A model generated the notes under the pieces. It saw only the letters and a program-made list of their open reading frames with translations. It did no database searches and had not been told where the DNA came from. Shown here piece after piece: positions 24,089 through 29,646 of a DNA stretch of 64,000 bases. Made by a program: the position numbers and the translations under genes. The stretch is from assembly GCF_000195085.1 (NCBI RefSeq), contig NC_015380.1, positions 668,001 through 732,000 of the forward strand. The letters are read 5' to 3'. Numbering within the stretch: position 1 is the first letter of the stretch; every line of letters begins with the position of its first letter. The DNA comes from Candidatus Pelagibacter sp. IMCC9063. GTDB lineage: Bacteria; Pseudomonadota; Alphaproteobacteria; Pelagibacterales; Pelagibacteraceae.

Positions 24089-25261
24089 CTACTTTAAAGA
24101 ATTAGCCAAATCTTCTTTAAGATCATTAATATCTTCCAGTCCAATAGATAACCTAATTAGGTTAGGGGTAATACCTAGGGATAATCTTGCCTCTTCTCCA
24201 AGAACTTTATGTGTTGTGGTAGTTGGATGAGTTACAAGAGATTTTGAGTCTCCTAAATTGTTAGAGATATCAAAAATATTTAATTTGTTGATAATTTTAA
24301 AAGCATCTTTCTTCCCGCCCTTAACTTTAAAGGCAATCATGGTTCCCCCGGCACTTTGTTGTTTTTTTGCCAGAGCGTATTGAGGAAAAGACTTAAGACC
24401 AGGATAGTACACTTGCTTAATTTTTTTATGTTTTTCTAAAAATCTCGCAATTTGTAATGCATTGTCGGATTGAGAAAGGACACGTATTTTTATTGTTTCT
24501 AAACTCTTAAGAAGAACCCATGCATTAAAAGGACTAATACAAGGACCGGTATGTCTCAAGAAAGGTTTTAGAATATTTTCTTTAAATTCATTTGTTGAAC
24601 AGACAGCCCCACCCATAGCTCTTCCCTGTCCATCAATATGCTTGGTGCCAGAATAAATAACAACATCTGCACCAAATTTGACTGGTTGTTGTAACACTGG
24701 TGATGCAAAAATATTATCTACAATAGTTGTTATTTTATTTTTTTTAGCAAGGTTACAAACTTGTTTAATATCAATAATTTCCAAGCATGGGTTAGAAGGA
24801 GATTCAAAGAAGAAAATCTTAGTATTTTTTTGAATACTTTTGTTCCATTCTTTAATATTTTTTCCATCAATAAAAGATACTTCAATCCCAAATTTAGGAA
24901 GTATGTCATTTAGTATATATCTACAGGAACCAAATAATGCTGAAGCAGAAACTACATGATCCCCAGCTTTTAATTGACACATCATCGAGCCGAATACAGC
25001 AGCCATTCCACTTGCTGTTGCAAAGCATGCCTCTGAACCATCTAATAAAGCCAACCTTTTTTCAAACATTTCTACTGTTGGATTGGCGTACCTAGAGTAT
25101 TGAAATCCTTTTTTCTTTCCTAGAAAAATAGCTTCTGCTTGCTCGGCTGAATCATAGACAAATCCCGAATTGAGAAAAATAGCTTCAGATGTTTCTTTAA
25201 AGTTAGATCTAGTTAGGCCACCCCTAACTAGATTGGTATCTAACTTAAATTTTTTTTTCAT
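24089..25261 (-). CDS. metZ: O-succinylhomoserine sulfhydrylase (MetZ-type)
   Basis: PLP enzyme of the Cys/Met metabolism family that makes homocysteine from an activated homoserine and sulfide. The 390-residue protein has YSRYANPTVEMFEKRLALLDG, SGMAAVFGSM, SPSNPCLEI, the PLP-lysine motif YSGTKHIDGQGR and GDSKSLVTHPTTTTH. The opening TNLVRGGLTRSNFKETSEAIFLNSGFVYDS resembles MetZ more than cystathionine gamma-synthase. It lies 37 bases after the MetE-like gene, so both are probably under the riboswitch leader upstream of that gene; sulfide would come from sulfur assimilation and the product would feed the MetE-like enzyme. Confidence 0.8.
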   Translation of the reverse strand: MKKKFKLDTNLVRGGLTRSNFKETSEAIFLNSGFVYDSAEQAEAIFLGKKKGFQYSRYANPTVEMFEKRLALLDGSEACFATASGMAAVFGSMMCQLKAGDHVVSASALFGSCRYILNDILPKFGIEVSFIDGKNIKEWNKSIQKNTKIFFFESPSNPCLEIIDIKQVCNLAKKNKITTIVDNIFASPVLQQPVKFGADVVIYSGTKHIDGQGRAMGGAVCSTNEFKENILKPFLRHTGPCISPFNAWVLLKSLETIKIRVLSQSDNALQIARFLEKHKKIKQVYYPGLKSFPQYALAKKQQSAGGTMIAFKVKGGKKDAFKIINKLNIFDISNNLGDSKSLVTHPTTTTHKVLGEEARLSLGITPNLIRLSIGLEDINDLKEDLANSLK

Positions 25262-25298: not shown

Positions 25299-26387
25299 TT
25301 ATAATCCTAATTGTTGAGCTGCCAACTTCGCGCCTTCAGTTCTTGTTTTGATTTTTTCAAATGCCCATTCTCGAGTAGTTGTTAAATCATTACAGAAAGG
25401 TGAATATCCACAACATTCAGAAACACCAGGAATAAATCCTAGGTGCTCTTTTGCAAGAACTATTCTTTCAGCTATTCTTTTTGGTGTTTCAACATCTTTG
25501 GCAAGATGAGAAACAAATCCTAAATAAACAAACTTTCCATTTAAGTTATCCTTAATACATTTAAGAACTTCCTCAAACTTACCCTCTCCTAAACTTGCAA
25601 AAGGTAAATGAAAGTTTTTTATTTTAGATTTCAAAAGAGCAGGATAGACATCCTGAAAGTTTGAATAGTTGTGGTTTGTGAAGTTGTCTGCACCAAAACA
25701 AGTGTGTAAAGTAACTTTATTAAGCTCTTCTTGGCTTAATTTTTCACAGACAGCATCAATTAGACCAACCATACTTTTTAAGACACCACCTGTTGGATCC
25801 ACTTTGATTGCATAAGTTGCTTCTGTCATATCCATACCAACTTCAGCAGCTCCAGACGCAATACACTTCTTAACATCTGTTACGCACTCATTAACAAGAT
25901 CATTGACGAATTGCTCCTTACTGTATCCATCAATTTCATCTTTATAAATTAATGATACAGCTGAAGGTGCAATTACAGTTGCCTTAAAAGGTTTATTTGA
26001 ATATTTTTTTAAAGTTGATATCCATTCATCACCATAATGAGCAAACTTAAAAGGAGTTTGTTCTTTTTGAAGAACAGCCATCTCTCTCGCATGATGACCT
26101 TCAAATTCGATAGTGAAACCTTTTCTACCTTCTTGATTTGGCTTTCCAAGTTTGATGAAACCTTTTTCTAAAAAATACGTAAGAAAATTAGGTTTTTCAA
26201 CTTCGCCAGTCGTTATAATCGGGTTACCATCAATTTTTTCATAATTAGTAACCACGTCTTTTATTTCAGAATCAATAATTTTATCTAATTCTACTTTTTT
26301 TAAATTACCTTCATCAAAAGCTGCATATGCAGATTGTAATTCAGGTGATCTTGGTAAGCTCCCAACGGGGGTTTGTTTTATTGTCAT
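25299..26387 (-). CDS. MetE catalytic-domain protein (cobalamin-independent methionine synthase family)
   Basis: A 362-residue protein corresponding to the C-terminal catalytic half of MetE, without the N-terminal half. Zinc-site residues are visible as HTCFGADN (His and Cys) and SECCGYSPF (Cys), with MDMTEATYAIKVDP between. Such core-MetE proteins methylate homocysteine using a simpler methyl donor or a partner protein; the donor here is unknown. The ATG at 26387 is chosen because it has GGAG six bases upstream; a TTG at 26420 in the same frame lies inside the leader hairpin. The tandem SAM riboswitch leader directly upstream strongly supports a role in methionine synthesis. Confidence 0.8.
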   Translation of the reverse strand: MTIKQTPVGSLPRSPELQSAYAAFDEGNLKKVELDKIIDSEIKDVVTNYEKIDGNPIITTGEVEKPNFLTYFLEKGFIKLGKPNQEGRKGFTIEFEGHHAREMAVLQKEQTPFKFAHYGDEWISTLKKYSNKPFKATVIAPSAVSLIYKDEIDGYSKEQFVNDLVNECVTDVKKCIASGAAEVGMDMTEATYAIKVDPTGGVLKSMVGLIDAVCEKLSQEELNKVTLHTCFGADNFTNHNYSNFQDVYPALLKSKIKNFHLPFASLGEGKFEEVLKCIKDNLNGKFVYLGFVSHLAKDVETPKRIAERIVLAKEHLGFIPGVSECCGYSPFCNDLTTTREWAFEKIKTRTEGAKLAAQQLGL

Positions 26388-26393
26388 TGTCTT

Positions 26394-26455
26394 CTCCTTT
26401 TTCGGAGGGGTATTGAACAAAATATTAAAGGGAAAAAAATTTGTTCAACATCTCC
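26394..26455 (-). promoter_or_regulatory. Possible ribosome-site relay between the SAM-V aptamer and the MetE-like start
   Basis: Two AAAAAGGAG sites occur in the leader. One (GGAG 26455-26452) closes the SAM-V aptamer; the other (26397-26394) is the true ribosome site. Between them CUCC (26407-26404) can pair with either. With the first, it extends an 11-bp hairpin whose core is TTGAACAAA (26448-26440) and TTTGTTCAA (26421-26413). With the second, it makes a small hairpin with loop GAAAAA that would hide the ribosome site. The pairings are seen directly; the switching logic is inference. Confidence 0.5.
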
Positions 26456-26507
26456 TTTTTAGTGCTTTGACTTATGTCGGGCGCACAATACGGTTCAAAT
26501 ACCCGGC
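26452..26507 (-). promoter_or_regulatory. SAM-V riboswitch
   Basis: On the minus strand the element has P1 CGGGT (26505-26501) with GCCCG (26482-26478), a loop reading ATTTGAACCGTATTGTGC, a linker ACATAAGTCAAA, and the 3' strand GCACTAAAAAGGAG. GTGC (26486-26483) pairs with GCAC (26465-26462) and the loop CC with the GG of AAAAAGG, giving the H-type pseudoknot of the SAM-II/SAM-V fold. SAM-V is a known S-adenosylmethionine aptamer of marine Alphaproteobacteria that masks a ribosome site. Placement before a methionine synthase gene fits. Confidence 0.75.
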
Positions 26508-26529
26508 TTTAAGAAGGAAAATATTGTCC

Positions 26530-26560
26530 AAAAAAAAACCACCAAAGAAAGCGGTGGTTT
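26530..26560 (-). terminator. Intrinsic terminator controlled by the SAM-II riboswitch
   Basis: AAACCACC (26560-26553), a nine-base loop, GGTGGTTT (26543-26536) and a run of nine T (26538-26530) form a clear rho-independent terminator inside the leader. The CGCTTT at 26553-26548 can instead pair with AAAGCG (26571-26566) at the 3' end of the SAM-II aptamer, which would act as antiterminator when SAM is absent. Confidence 0.85.
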
Positions 26561-26565
26561 AATAT

Positions 26566-26614
26566 CGCTTTAGCTGGATTTTTAAAGCGCCCGCAATTTG
26601 AAGAAATCGGCGCT
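26566..26614 (-). promoter_or_regulatory. SAM-II riboswitch
   Basis: P1 is AGCGCC (26614-26609) with GGCGCT (26591-26586). The loop starts GATTT and ends AATTGCG, the linker is A/T-rich, and the conserved 3' strand AGCTAAAGCG (26575-26566) returns to the loop as a pseudoknot. This matches the SAM-II layout (stem, GATTT loop, AGCTAAA tail). It starts about two bases after the predicted transcription start and is followed by an intrinsic terminator, so it most likely acts at transcription. Confidence 0.8.
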
Positions 26615-26622
26615 GTAACAAT

Positions 26623-26651
26623 CTTATATAACTTATATAATTTTATGTCAA
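26623..26651 (-). promoter_or_regulatory. Sigma-70-type promoter for the methionine leader
   Basis: On the minus strand TTGACA (26651-26646) and TATAAG (26628-26623) are separated by exactly 17 bases. The predicted start, near 26616, falls two bases before the first stem of the SAM-II element, which supports both calls. Confidence 0.75.
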
Positions 26652-26658
26652 TTGATTT

Positions 26659-26832
26659 TTAGTGCTTATGATTTTGAGATCCACCCAAACCGCACGGCAT
26701 CGCATTGATGGATCCAGAGGTTTCACCTTCTTTATGAAACAGAGGATTGTAAGCCACACCGCTATAATTGTGGTCATAGAGTATGACTACAAAAAAAATA
26801 GACAAAATGATGAGATATAAAATATTTTTCAT
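26659..26832 (-). CDS. Small membrane-anchored protein (57 aa) of the YeeE/YedE sulfur operon
   Basis: The ATG overlaps the stop codon of the YeeE/YedE gene (TAATG), so translation is likely coupled. Residues 1-18 are a hydrophobic signal or anchor (KNILYLIILSIFFVVILY). The mature part contains YNPLFHKEGETSGS and ends MPCGLGGSQNHKH, with a single Cys and four His in the soluble part including a His-Lys-His tail, which could bind metal or carry sulfur. I do not recognise a named family. The operon (peroxiredoxin, exported sulfurtransferase, sulfur transporter) suggests a periplasmic role in handling reduced sulfur. It ends just before the promoter of the methionine leader. Confidence 0.6.
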   Translation of the reverse strand: MKNILYLIILSIFFVVILYDHNYSGVAYNPLFHKEGETSGSINAMPCGLGGSQNHKH

Positions 26833-27994
26833 TAGTAAAAAAACTTTCTGACTTTAACTCCAAAGTAAGAACCCATAAACGCAAACAAGAACCATACCCA
26901 ACCGTGCATACTCCCTGAAGCTATACCGCTAAACAATGCTCCAATATTACAACCAAATGCAAGTCTTGCTCCATAGCCCATAAAAAATCCACCAATCATG
27001 GCAGCTAAAAATAACTTCTTATCAATTTTAATTTGATTAGAAAAATTACCCGATAAAGCGGAAGCTATTAAAGCTCCCAAAATAATTCCTAAGTTAGAAA
27101 CGGTTGTAGGATCTGCTAACAAACTATTTTCTAGAGCAACAGCAGGGTAGGATAGTTGCCAATAGTCCCAAGAAGAAACATCCACACCAATTAGGGTTAC
27201 TAATTTTGCACCCCACAACCCAAAAGAAAATGTGACAGACCACGGATGACCTGCAGCATGCAACATTAAAAAGTTAAACAATACCAAAAGTATAGAACCC
27301 AAAAATAAAGGCCACGGTCCCCTAAGAAGATTAGAAGAAGTAAATCTAAAAATATTATTATGATCTATTATTTTATTTTTTTTCTTGTCTAGAATAAAAA
27401 CAGTTAAATAAAGAGCAGCGATAAGACCTAATTGAAAAGTTAAAGTTTCAGCTAGAGTATAGTTGTCTAGTAAAGAAATCCCTCCCAAAGAAGGAAGGGA
27501 TGACCAAAAAGTAAAGTGATATGTTCCCACTACAGAGCCAATAATAAAAAAAATAAAGTAATAACCATTTTAGTATTACCGCTTCCAGCAGTAAATAAAG
27601 TTCCAGAGCCACAGCCCCCACCCAATTGCATGGCAAGACCAAATATAAAAGATCCAATAACCACAGATAAACTAACTGGAGCAATTGCCCCTACGATAGT
27701 GCCATCATACACAAAACTTTTAGAACCAATGACAAAAGAAAAAACTATAGCTGCCAAGGCCAACATTAAAAATTGAGCTCGAAGCGCACTACTATCTCTT
27801 TGTTCAATAAAATTTCTCCAACCACCCGTAAAACCAAATGCAGCTTTATATAAAGTGAAGCCCAAACCAATACCGATAGCAAAAACTAAAAAATGACGAA
27901 GACCAATCGTGGAGTAAGTAATGTAAGAAAATAATATAGTAAAAATAACCCCAAACAAAACAATGGGCATCTCAATTTTTTTAATTACAATCAT
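26832..27994 (-). CDS. YeeE/YedE-family (TsuA-like) sulfur transporter, broken by one homopolymer frameshift
   Basis: Integral membrane protein of the family that includes thiosulfate importers. The N-terminal half (27994-27530) has GFTGGWRNF and the cysteine motif LGGGCGSGTLF; the C-terminal half (27530-26832) has the second cysteine motif LAFGCNIGALFSG and GSMHGWVW. They appear as two frames joined by TAGTG, but adding one base to the A8 run at 27546-27553 (T8 on the coding strand) reads through as ITLFFFIIGSVVGTYHF, one membrane helix, giving a single 387-residue protein. The apparent GTG start at 27530 is then internal. Paired cysteine motifs fit sulfur-compound relay through the membrane. 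Confidence 0.82.
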
Positions 27995-28016
27995 GAGGGG
28001 GTTGTACTCTAATTAA

Positions 28017-28046
28017 ATATGCGGGTAAATCTTACTACCCGCATAT
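28017..28046 (-). promoter_or_regulatory. Hairpin between the sulfurtransferase and transporter genes
   Basis: A perfect 11-bp inverted repeat (ATATGCGGGTA at 28017-28027 and its complement at 28036-28046) with an 8-base loop lies between the two genes. Only a weak T-rich stretch follows on the minus strand. It may be a partial terminator or a processing and stability hairpin that sets the ratio of the upstream to the downstream products. Confidence 0.55.
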
Positions 28047-28060
28047 AGTAGTTTTTAAAA

Positions 28061-28966
28061 TTATCCGGAAATAACTTTGTTTTTAGGGTTGCTTTCCCAA
28101 TGAGCCCAAGATCCATCATACATTCTTACCTGTGGAATATTTGCCACTTCACTTAGCGCAAACCAAACAGTAGCAGCCCAGTGTCCAGTGTTACAATAAG
28201 TAATGTATCCTTTAAAATCCTTGATTTGAGCATCGTCATAGAGCTTTAAAATTTCAGCTTTAGACTTGATAAAACCATCATTTCCAACTGTTTTTTGTTG
28301 CTCTACATTAACCGCATTGGGTATTCTTCCAACTACTTTTAAAGCAGGGTGTTTTTTTACTCCTTTAAAAAAATCATTAGGTCTAGCATCAATTAAACAA
28401 ATACCATTTGTTTCTTTCTTGGCATTTCTTACTTCTTTATAAGAAGCGCTGTACTTTTTGTTGATTGAAGCCTTAAATACTTTTGGAGCTAACACACTCG
28501 CACCAGCCGCCACTTTATAGCCAGCATCTTTCCATGACTTAAAACCACCATTTAAAATAGAAACATTTTCATGTCCTAAAGTTTTAAAAGTCCAATAAAT
28601 TCTAGCAGCACTTCCAAAGTCAGTAGAATTCACTCCAGCATATATAACAACAACATGCTTTGAATTATCAATTCCAAGACTTCCTACTAATTGTTCCAGT
28701 GGTTTTTTTCCTGGAAATTGTCCAATTACACCATTAACTTTTGCTCTCCATCCATCTTTTAGATAGTCAGAGTGCACTGCTCCTGGAATATGAGCTTGTT
28801 TAAATGTTTCGTAAGATCCACCATCAATTTTGTTTCTAACATCTAATACAAATACATTTTGGTTGTTTAAATTTTTATTTAACCATTTCACATCCACTAA
28901 CGGTTCTGCTGAAAACACGGATGTTGAAATAAAAATAAAAAGTACTGCTGTTATTATTTTTTTCAT
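28061..28966 (-). CDS. Exported thiosulfate/3-mercaptopyruvate sulfurtransferase (two rhodanese domains)
   Basis: Transfers sulfane sulfur to a thiol or cyanide acceptor. A signal peptide (KKIITAVLFIFISTSVFSA) directs it to the periplasm. The first, inactive rhodanese domain holds VFVLDVRNKIDGGSYETFKQ and HIPGAVHSDYLKDG; the second, active domain has CLIDARPNDFFKG, GRIPNAVNV and the catalytic loop YCNTGHWAAT with the active Cys. The 301-residue length is typical for SseA-type enzymes with a leader. It lies between a peroxiredoxin and the YeeE/YedE transporter in one minus-strand operon, which suggests sulfur from thiosulfate or persulfides is processed before uptake. Confidence 0.85.
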   Translation of the reverse strand: MKKIITAVLFIFISTSVFSAEPLVDVKWLNKNLNNQNVFVLDVRNKIDGGSYETFKQAHIPGAVHSDYLKDGWRAKVNGVIGQFPGKKPLEQLVGSLGIDNSKHVVVIYAGVNSTDFGSAARIYWTFKTLGHENVSILNGGFKSWKDAGYKVAAGASVLAPKVFKASINKKYSASYKEVRNAKKETNGICLIDARPNDFFKGVKKHPALKVVGRIPNAVNVEQQKTVGNDGFIKSKAEILKLYDDAQIKDFKGYITYCNTGHWAATVWFALSEVANIPQVRMYDGSWAHWESNPKNKVISG

Positions 28967-28977
28967 TTTTTCCTTTT

Positions 28978-29646
28978 CTAATTTAATATTTTGGGTTGTT
29001 TAACAATTCTAAGGTAGGGCTTTACTGTATTCCAACCACTTGGAAACAACGTTTTAGCTTCTTCTTCTTTTACTGCAGGAACAATAATTACATCTTCACC
29101 TTGCTTCCAATTAGCAGGAGTTGCAACTTTGTGTTTTGCAGTTAACTGAAGTGAGTCAATGACTCTTAGAATTTCTGGAAAGTTTCTTCCGGTAGCCATT
29201 GGATACGATAAAATAAGCTTAATTTTTTTATCAGGACCAATCACAAATACATTTCGAACCGTTGCATTATCAGCCGCTGTTCTCTCGTCAGAAAATCCTT
29301 CAGTGCTAGCAGGAAGCATTCCATAGGCTTTTGCAATTGTTAGATCCTTATCTCCAATGAGTGGATACTCAGGTTTGAAACCAGTAACATCCTTGATGTC
29401 CTCACTCCATTTTCCATGATCTTCTACTGGATCAACACTTAATCCTAAAATTTTAACATTTCTTTTATCAAACTCACCCTTGTGGCTTTGAAGCGCCCCA
29501 AGTTCAGTTGTACAAACTGGAGTAAAATTTTTTGGATGGGAAAAAAGTACAATCCAGCTATCTTTAGCCCAATCATATAAATTAATTTTTCCTTGAGTTG
29601 TCTCTGCTTCAAAATCTGGAGCTGTATCATTTATTTTTAATGTCAT
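28978..29646 (-). CDS. 1-Cys peroxiredoxin (Prx6 type)
   Basis: Thiol peroxidase reducing peroxides and possibly persulfides. The 222-residue protein has the thioredoxin-fold opening LKINDTAPDFEAETTQG, the peroxidatic motif HPKNFTPVCTTELGAL with Cys near residue 45, GLSVDPVEDHGKW, and the long C-terminal extension (YPMATGRNFPEILRVIDSLQL, TPANWKQGEDVIIVPAV) that defines the Prx6 group. It is the first gene of the sulfur operon, divergent from the Lrp-type regulator. Confidence 0.92.
   Translation of the reverse strand: MTLKINDTAPDFEAETTQGKINLYDWAKDSWIVLFSHPKNFTPVCTTELGALQSHKGEFDKRNVKILGLSVDPVEDHGKWSEDIKDVTGFKPEYPLIGDKDLTIAKAYGMLPASTEGFSDERTAADNATVRNVFVIGPDKKIKLILSYPMATGRNFPEILRVIDSLQLTAKHKVATPANWKQGEDVIIVPAVKEEEAKTLFPSGWNTVKPYLRIVKQPKILN

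Follow-up and report, generated by a model that had tools for sequence, protein, structure and literature searches.

SAM-V riboswitches have so far been presented as elements that directly hide a ribosome site. In the window analysed here, a stretch of 64,000 nucleotides from Candidatus Pelagibacter sp. IMCC9063, the GGAG at the end of a SAM-V aptamer (GGAG1) lies 64 nt from the ATG of a metE-like gene, and a second GGAG (GGAG2) lies 6 nt from the same ATG. How could the aptamer act on a ribosome site that is not its own? A sequence-only reading of the locus had proposed that GGAG1 is a decoy which relays the SAM signal to GGAG2 through a CUCC. Its positions are right base for base, the 64 nt having been given there as about 65.

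A tandem leader in front of a metE-like gene

The leader and the genes behind it comprise the following features:

26549-26623, minus strand: SAM-II (SAM_alpha) aptamer, the first of the two sensors in this tandem leader (RF00521, 28.1 bits, E 2e-4)
26530-26560, minus strand: intrinsic terminator between SAM-II and SAM-V (AACCACC...GGUGGUU and a U run), read from the sequence
26449-26513, minus strand: SAM-V aptamer (RF01826, 69.3 bits, E 3e-9)
26492-26493, minus strand: SAM-V C14-C15, predicted to pair in P2a with the two leading G of GGAG1 (26455-26454); bases numbered as by Huang and Lilley 2018 (PMC6061858)
26452-26455, minus strand: GGAG1, the putative decoy at the aptamer end and the base of hairpin H1, with CUCC as its partner there
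26440-26450, minus strand: 5' arm of H1 (A arm), UGUUGAACAAA (A:B duplex -15.8 kcal/mol; covariation in relatives)
26411-26421, minus strand: 3' arm of H1 (B arm), UUUGUUCAAUA (same duplex and covariation evidence)
26404-26407, minus strand: CUCC, the putative shared anti-Shine-Dalgarno (anti-SD) element of GGAG1 (ON) or GGAG2 (OFF), conserved as CUCC or with G-U-compatible changes in the related leaders described below
26398-26403, minus strand: GAAAAA loop between CUCC and GGAG2, read from the sequence
26394-26397, minus strand: GGAG2, the true Shine-Dalgarno (SD) sequence of the metE-like gene, by its 6 nt to the ATG and its pairing in hairpin H2
26387-26385, minus strand: ATG of the metE-like gene, read from the sequence
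25299-26387, minus strand: metE-like gene, core-only form of the cobalamin-independent methionine synthase family (PF01717)
24089-25261, minus strand: next gene downstream, O-succinylhomoserine sulfhydrylase / metY-metZ family (PF01053; TIGR01325, 545.7 bits, over the cut-off)

The SAM-V aptamer matches the full covariance model (1-66) with 69.3 bits against a gathering score of 41; the cmscan alignment contains the core nucleotides of this putative SAM sensor. SAM-II scores 28.1 bits, short of its gathering score of 36, but its conserved core and the terminator are present, and the same terminator element stands 3' of SAM-II in the leaders of relatives as well. This upstream part, the SAM-II aptamer with the stem and U run that adjoin SAM-V, is absent from the sequence-only reading; the order SAM-II, intrinsic terminator, SAM-V is shared with relatives. 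The 1.28-Mb SAR11-type genome of the window contains a single SAM-V.

Behind the aptamer, an 18-nt loop separates the A arm from the B arm, and a short C-rich stretch with the CUCC follows. The two arms (26450-26440 and 26421-26411) are complementary over 11 pairs, nine consecutive Watson-Crick pairs and then one G-U and one U-A, in agreement with the extended hairpin proposed before. In a direct platform the gene would use the aptamer's GGAG as its SD, about 10 nt or less from the start; this is not the case here, and, as had been proposed, it is the second GGAG (26397-26394) that serves the gene, 6 nt from the ATG.

The metE-like protein has only weak matches, below the cut-off, to NF003317 and NF004875, and its relatives begin with MIKQTPVGSLPRSP. 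It shares 87% identity with the protein of another SAR11 genus and has only distant matches in its genus mates, which suggests a transfer of the gene (25299-26387; L056, L067 and L135 elsewhere). A relative of this protein was not found on viral contigs. SAM-V is absent from the other members of the window's genus; in four of five genus mates (L129-L132; G001, G002, G004, G005), SAM-II and a terminator precede a gene called metF-like from its translation, not from a family search. Having no SAM-V and SAM-II only at that gene, the genus mates were dropped as a close comparison. Directly upstream of the leader (26832-29646) lies a sulphur gene cluster with two YeeE/YedE-type sulphur-transport half proteins, a rhodanese-like protein and a 1-Cys peroxiredoxin.

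Recurrence and pairing of hairpins H1 and H2

In a sample of 397 genomes from the Pelagibacteraceae, 253 contain SAM-V. Loci from several searches and from fetched regions (Pelagibacteraceae/SAR11) were parsed into 147 distinct SAM-V leaders, a non-random sampling, so that the counts given here are not natural frequencies. In 77 of them (direct leaders) the gene uses the aptamer GGAG as its SD, usually at 4-10 nt from the ATG. Another 66 show what is here called relay anatomy, that is a GGAG followed by an arm, a complementary arm ending in CUCC and a real SD (SD2; GGAG2 in the window) 5-10 nt beyond; four are long or orphaned forms. The distance from GGAG1 to the start in the relay leaders is 41-73 nt; the value of 41 nt stems from a single leader in which the script assigned the wrong SD, and all others have about 50 nt or more.

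Relay leaders precede metE-like, metY and bhmT genes in four genera: 45 leaders of metY in one genus, ten of a second bhmT-like family, seven of bhmT in the genus of HTCC1062, those of the metE-like genes in two genera (the window; L056 and L067) and one of bhmT in another genus (L040). Because these leaders are akin, and because arms are alike between the window and L040 and between the metY leaders and the metE-like leaders of the other genus, the 66 would correspond to about four independent arm designs. Every one of the 66 is a tandem SAM-II/SAM-V leader, and none of the 42 single SAM-V leaders has this anatomy. On these comparisons the platform is recurrent in tandem leaders and not peculiar to the gene in the window, and the recurrence is far stronger evidence than the sequence of the window alone.

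Some leaders deserve separate mention. The long g3/g7 leaders of bhmT (L041, L042, L051) were kept outside the 66 as they lack a clean second SD; they have a long hairpin and an ORF of about 45 codons right behind the aptamer GGAG, overlapping the bhmT start. L025 (G235:C7) is a tandem leader with H1, without a second SD or an evident gene, and is apparently orphaned. In L135, a metE-like gene stands behind a direct-type SAM-V and adjoins a bhmT leader of the relay type.

In hairpin H1, GGAG1 and the A arm pair with the B arm and CUCC. The best A:B duplex has -15 kcal/mol or lower in relay leaders versus -7.4 kcal/mol or weaker in the others. Exchange of arms among ten families, which are not fully independent, costs 6.5 kcal/mol on average (mean A:B energy -19.0 for own and -12.5 for foreign arms; 0 of 100,000 permutations). 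When the A arm was replaced by 59 distinct start regions of direct leaders, none of them matched the pairing of the own arm with B in any of the 12 leaders (12/12). Pairs were counted in registers anchored on GGAG1 and CUCC, because a plain MAFFT alignment misaligns the arms and was rejected. In these fixed registers compensatory changes occur at A7-B7 (GC/AU), A9-B10 (UA/GC), A10-B11 (GC/AU), A11-B12 (AU/GC), A12-B13 (AU/CG/UA) and A13-B14 (CG/UA), and GGAG1:CUCC is conserved across relay leaders with G-U variants only. The arms thus conserve complementarity, not sequence, while CUCC (or its G-U form) and both GGAGs are kept. On the grounds of these energies, arm exchanges and covariation, H1 is real. 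The sequence-only reading had said in advance that a lack of conservation of CUCC or the arms in relatives would count against it; both CUCC and the complementarity of the arms are retained.

The conservation of H1 also bears on the idea that a 30S subunit binds GGAG1 and is passed on to the ATG about 64 nt downstream, SAM masking GGAG1 directly. By analogy, capture at a distance has a serious precedent in Sinorhizobium meliloti metA, where reporter data were obtained for a related aptamer class at a closely similar distance (PMC9373788). However, the leaders considered here have a good SD at 4-8 nt from the true start, whereas the S. meliloti AUG2 has weak SD-like bases only and fails alone (PMC9373788). 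Furthermore, H1 would hide GGAG1 in just the state in which capture is needed, so that capture does not account for a hairpin conserved by covariation. This explanation is considered very improbable.

In hairpin H2, CUCC pairs with the true SD. In each of the 65 leaders scored (65/65) the anti-SD pairs with all four bases of SD2, the whole AUG is paired in 55 of these, and the gap between CUCC and SD is 5-10 nt in the leaders printed. Thus CUCC can indeed pair with either GGAG, as had been proposed: H1 and H2 share it and are mutually exclusive, and H2 closes the SD, as judged from covariation and from the folding ensembles described below. Pairing of the B arm with the start region (B:C) is stronger for own than for swapped arms among families (-11.9 versus -9.8, p 0.007), and in metY leaders the partners of the B arm are the SD, the AUG and the first codons of the downstream ORF, so that the decoy arm would mimic the whole start region. 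B:C pairing beyond GGAG:CUCC was nevertheless rejected as a universal feature; it is specific only in the metY, metE-like (g5) and second bhmT families. The window's H2 consists of CUCC:GGAG and some distal pairs only, and its B arm pairs no better with its own start region than with those of other genes.

The conserved hairpins could also have no part in SAM control, H1 being a stabilising or spacing element of the mRNA and GGAG2 constitutively open or limited, with SAM-II as the only regulator. SD2 of the window, predicted to be mostly closed with or without free GGAG1, agrees with this. It is, however, hardly expected under this explanation that H1 includes GGAG1:CUCC across families, that CUCC stands 5-10 nt before SD2, and that the two states are close in energy in a switch-like manner. 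Hairpins without regulation are therefore given little credence.

A further explanation takes GGAG1 as a real ribosome site of a short ORF that begins just behind it. SAM-V would mask this site directly, and translation of the short ORF would open the hairpins and permit re-initiation at the main ATG. In 28 of the 45 metY leaders of one genus an AUG is found 3 nt past GGAG1, in a frame that reaches ATG2 with an AUGA; similar overlaps exist in metE-like and some bhmT leaders (L056, L106, L042), and the ORFs of about 45 codons in the long g3/g7 leaders overlap the bhmT start. However, the other 17 metY leaders have no coupled frame owing to indels, early stops or other changes and still keep H1 and H2, and no start is near GGAG1 in three bhmT leaders checked, HTCC1062 included. 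The AUG in the window has zero spacing to GGAG1, which makes a short ORF implausible there, and the resulting 8-codon ORF stops 37 nt before the main ATG. As a general conserved element the upstream ORF was rejected, since the frame behind GGAG1 is not kept; coupling through such an ORF is unlikely, if somewhat less so than the two explanations above.

A different ORF was observed in the metY relay leaders (L062, L065, L066 and 42 among L073-L119 and L163-L186, from one SAR11 genus). In all 45, SD2 opens an ORF of 14-15 codons (MNETIRETVRGKING), which has an 8-nt overlap with the start of metY. Translational coupling of this ORF with metY is likely on the basis of the overlap, which also fits SD2 as the true initiation site.

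A predicted exchange of CUCC between H1 and H2

The effect of losing GGAG1 was calculated on the segment from GGAG1 to 18 nt from the ATG, with only the four bases of GGAG1 forced to be single-stranded. In 40 leaders the median probability of an open SD2 falls from 0.27 to 2.5e-7, and in the window from 0.042 to 4e-5; in L042, of the long type, openness shifts merely 3-fold. When only the arms were shuffled, with GGAG1, CUCC and GGAG2 fixed, 0 of 200 sequences reproduced the openness of SD2 together with its response to GGAG1, and when the whole stretch between the two GGAGs was shuffled, 1% reproduced the response; shuffling of either type abolishes the effect in nearly all cases (at most 2% keep it). 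By secondary-structure energies, which ignore the aptamer pseudoknot, little separates the ON fold from the OFF fold, as would be expected for a switch.

Judged from these folds, the window's copy is among the weaker relay leaders. Its SD2 is mostly closed at equilibrium even with free GGAG1 (0.042 open in the local segment, 2.7e-4 in the full leader). Furthermore, its B arm is complementary to the 5' strand of the aptamer (26504-26492 with 26421-26408, GGGUAUUUGAAC : GUUCAAUACCC, -13.7 kcal/mol), an outlier that no other relay leader reaches in strength; as a general anti-aptamer state this pairing was rejected, being strong in the window only. Given both observations, kinetic folding would have to favour H1 in the window.

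The aptamer could take hold of GGAG1 through P2a. In the SAM-V crystal structure the beginning of the SD pairs with bases 14-15, and the resulting 2-bp helix has been proposed to form with SAM (PMC6061858). Bases 14-15 are CC, with five A before GGAG, in 66 of 66 relay leaders (CC:GG), versus CU with mostly six A in 42 of 42 single SAM-V leaders (CU:AG); CC is also found in 16 of 35 direct tandem leaders, so that lineage contributes to the contrast. In the pairing that we infer for relay leaders, P2a would claim just those two G on which H1 depends. The decoy had previously been placed in the pseudoknot; the comparison points to a hold by the 2-bp P2a, not by the main pseudoknot stem.

The leader would then be a two-stage SAM sensor, in which SAM-II and the terminator act on transcription and SAM-V acts on translation via an indirect platform. 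At low SAM, the free GGAG1 would pair with CUCC at the foot of the long H1, which would form first during transcription and be finished before GGAG2 is made, leaving the true SD open and the metE-like gene translated. At high SAM, P2a of the locked aptamer (C14-C15 with two G of GGAG1) would withdraw GGAG1 from H1, whose upper part could persist, and the freed CUCC would fold 6 nt forward onto GGAG2, closing the SD in H2. SAM would thus act in the OFF sense in the cell. We regard this two-stage sensor with a relay platform as the best explanation and as probably correct. The relay proposed before for one leader gains comparative support, as a conserved platform of tandem SAM-II/SAM-V leaders, from the 66 of 147 leaders, the covarying arms and the ensemble effect of blocking GGAG1.

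Comparison with known riboswitch platforms

Directly acting SAM-V (Ca. Pelagibacter ubique metY; RF01826; 6FZ0) shares with the window the aptamer, the SAM-binding core and the GGAG at the 3' end and, as proposed for the window, represses methionine genes of SAR11. In that platform the gene uses the aptamer's GGAG as its SD, about ten nt or less from the start (PMC2704228, PMC6061858), whereas the GGAG is 64 nt away in the window, where GGAG1 would act via CUCC on another SD and P2a would be CC:GG instead of CU:AG.

In the TPP riboswitches of Escherichia coli thiM and tbpA, as proposed for the window, a ligand-stabilised aptamer swaps pairing partners and the SD is sequestered. The thiM riboswitch follows the same logic of an anti-SD and an alternative stem. 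For tbpA, the alternative stem of the ligand-free RNA keeps the SD open (PMC11487190). Both differ in aptamer and ligand, and unlike in E. coli the relay would exchange a GGAG that imitates the true SD and, in one family, the entire start region. Of the possible new mechanism put forward by the sequence-only reading, the novelty as a SAM-V platform stands; a ligand that frees an anti-SD to close the SD is known from other riboswitch classes and is not a new principle.

The SAM-II leader of S. meliloti metA likewise has an SD-like sequence in a SAM aptamer and its real start 74 nt downstream. It differs in that the aptamer's own SD is required for initiation at the distant AUG, and neither a second good SD nor a covarying exchange hairpin is reported in the accessible part of the study (PMC9373788).

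The SAM-V sites of HTCC1062 (1127359-1127423, 1005818-1005886 and 732787-732850) fall in intergenic regions of bhmT, metY and mmuM listed by Meyer et al. 2009 (PMC2704228). The bhmT region ends at 1127293, which places GGAG1 about 69 nt from the annotated start. In the bhmT leader (GGAGAAAAGAGG...CCUUUUUUCUCC AAAACAA GAGG...AUG), GGAG1 pairs with CUCC, and CUC with the preceding bases can pair with the true SD GAGG instead. By its sequence, the experimentally studied bhmT tandem riboswitch has relay anatomy and, like the window, the order SAM-II, terminator, SAM-V. Unlike in the relay reading, it has been published as direct control, SAM-V governing access to the ribosome binding site (PMC9481103) or the SD being referred to as that of the SAM-V domain (PMC11508383); a relay is not described in the accessible parts of these two papers. 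If the relay is true, it would revise the published model of this riboswitch, a large part of the SAM-V leaders in a bacterial group that is among the most abundant in the ocean, this laboratory model included, would work differently from what has been assumed, and work on the aptamer alone would omit the actual expression platform. It would also reveal an evolutionary route from direct masking of the SD to an exchange platform, for which metY would be a clear case: its leaders in one SAR11 family occur in direct and relay forms, by genus labels even within the same genus, with P2a changing from CU to CC.
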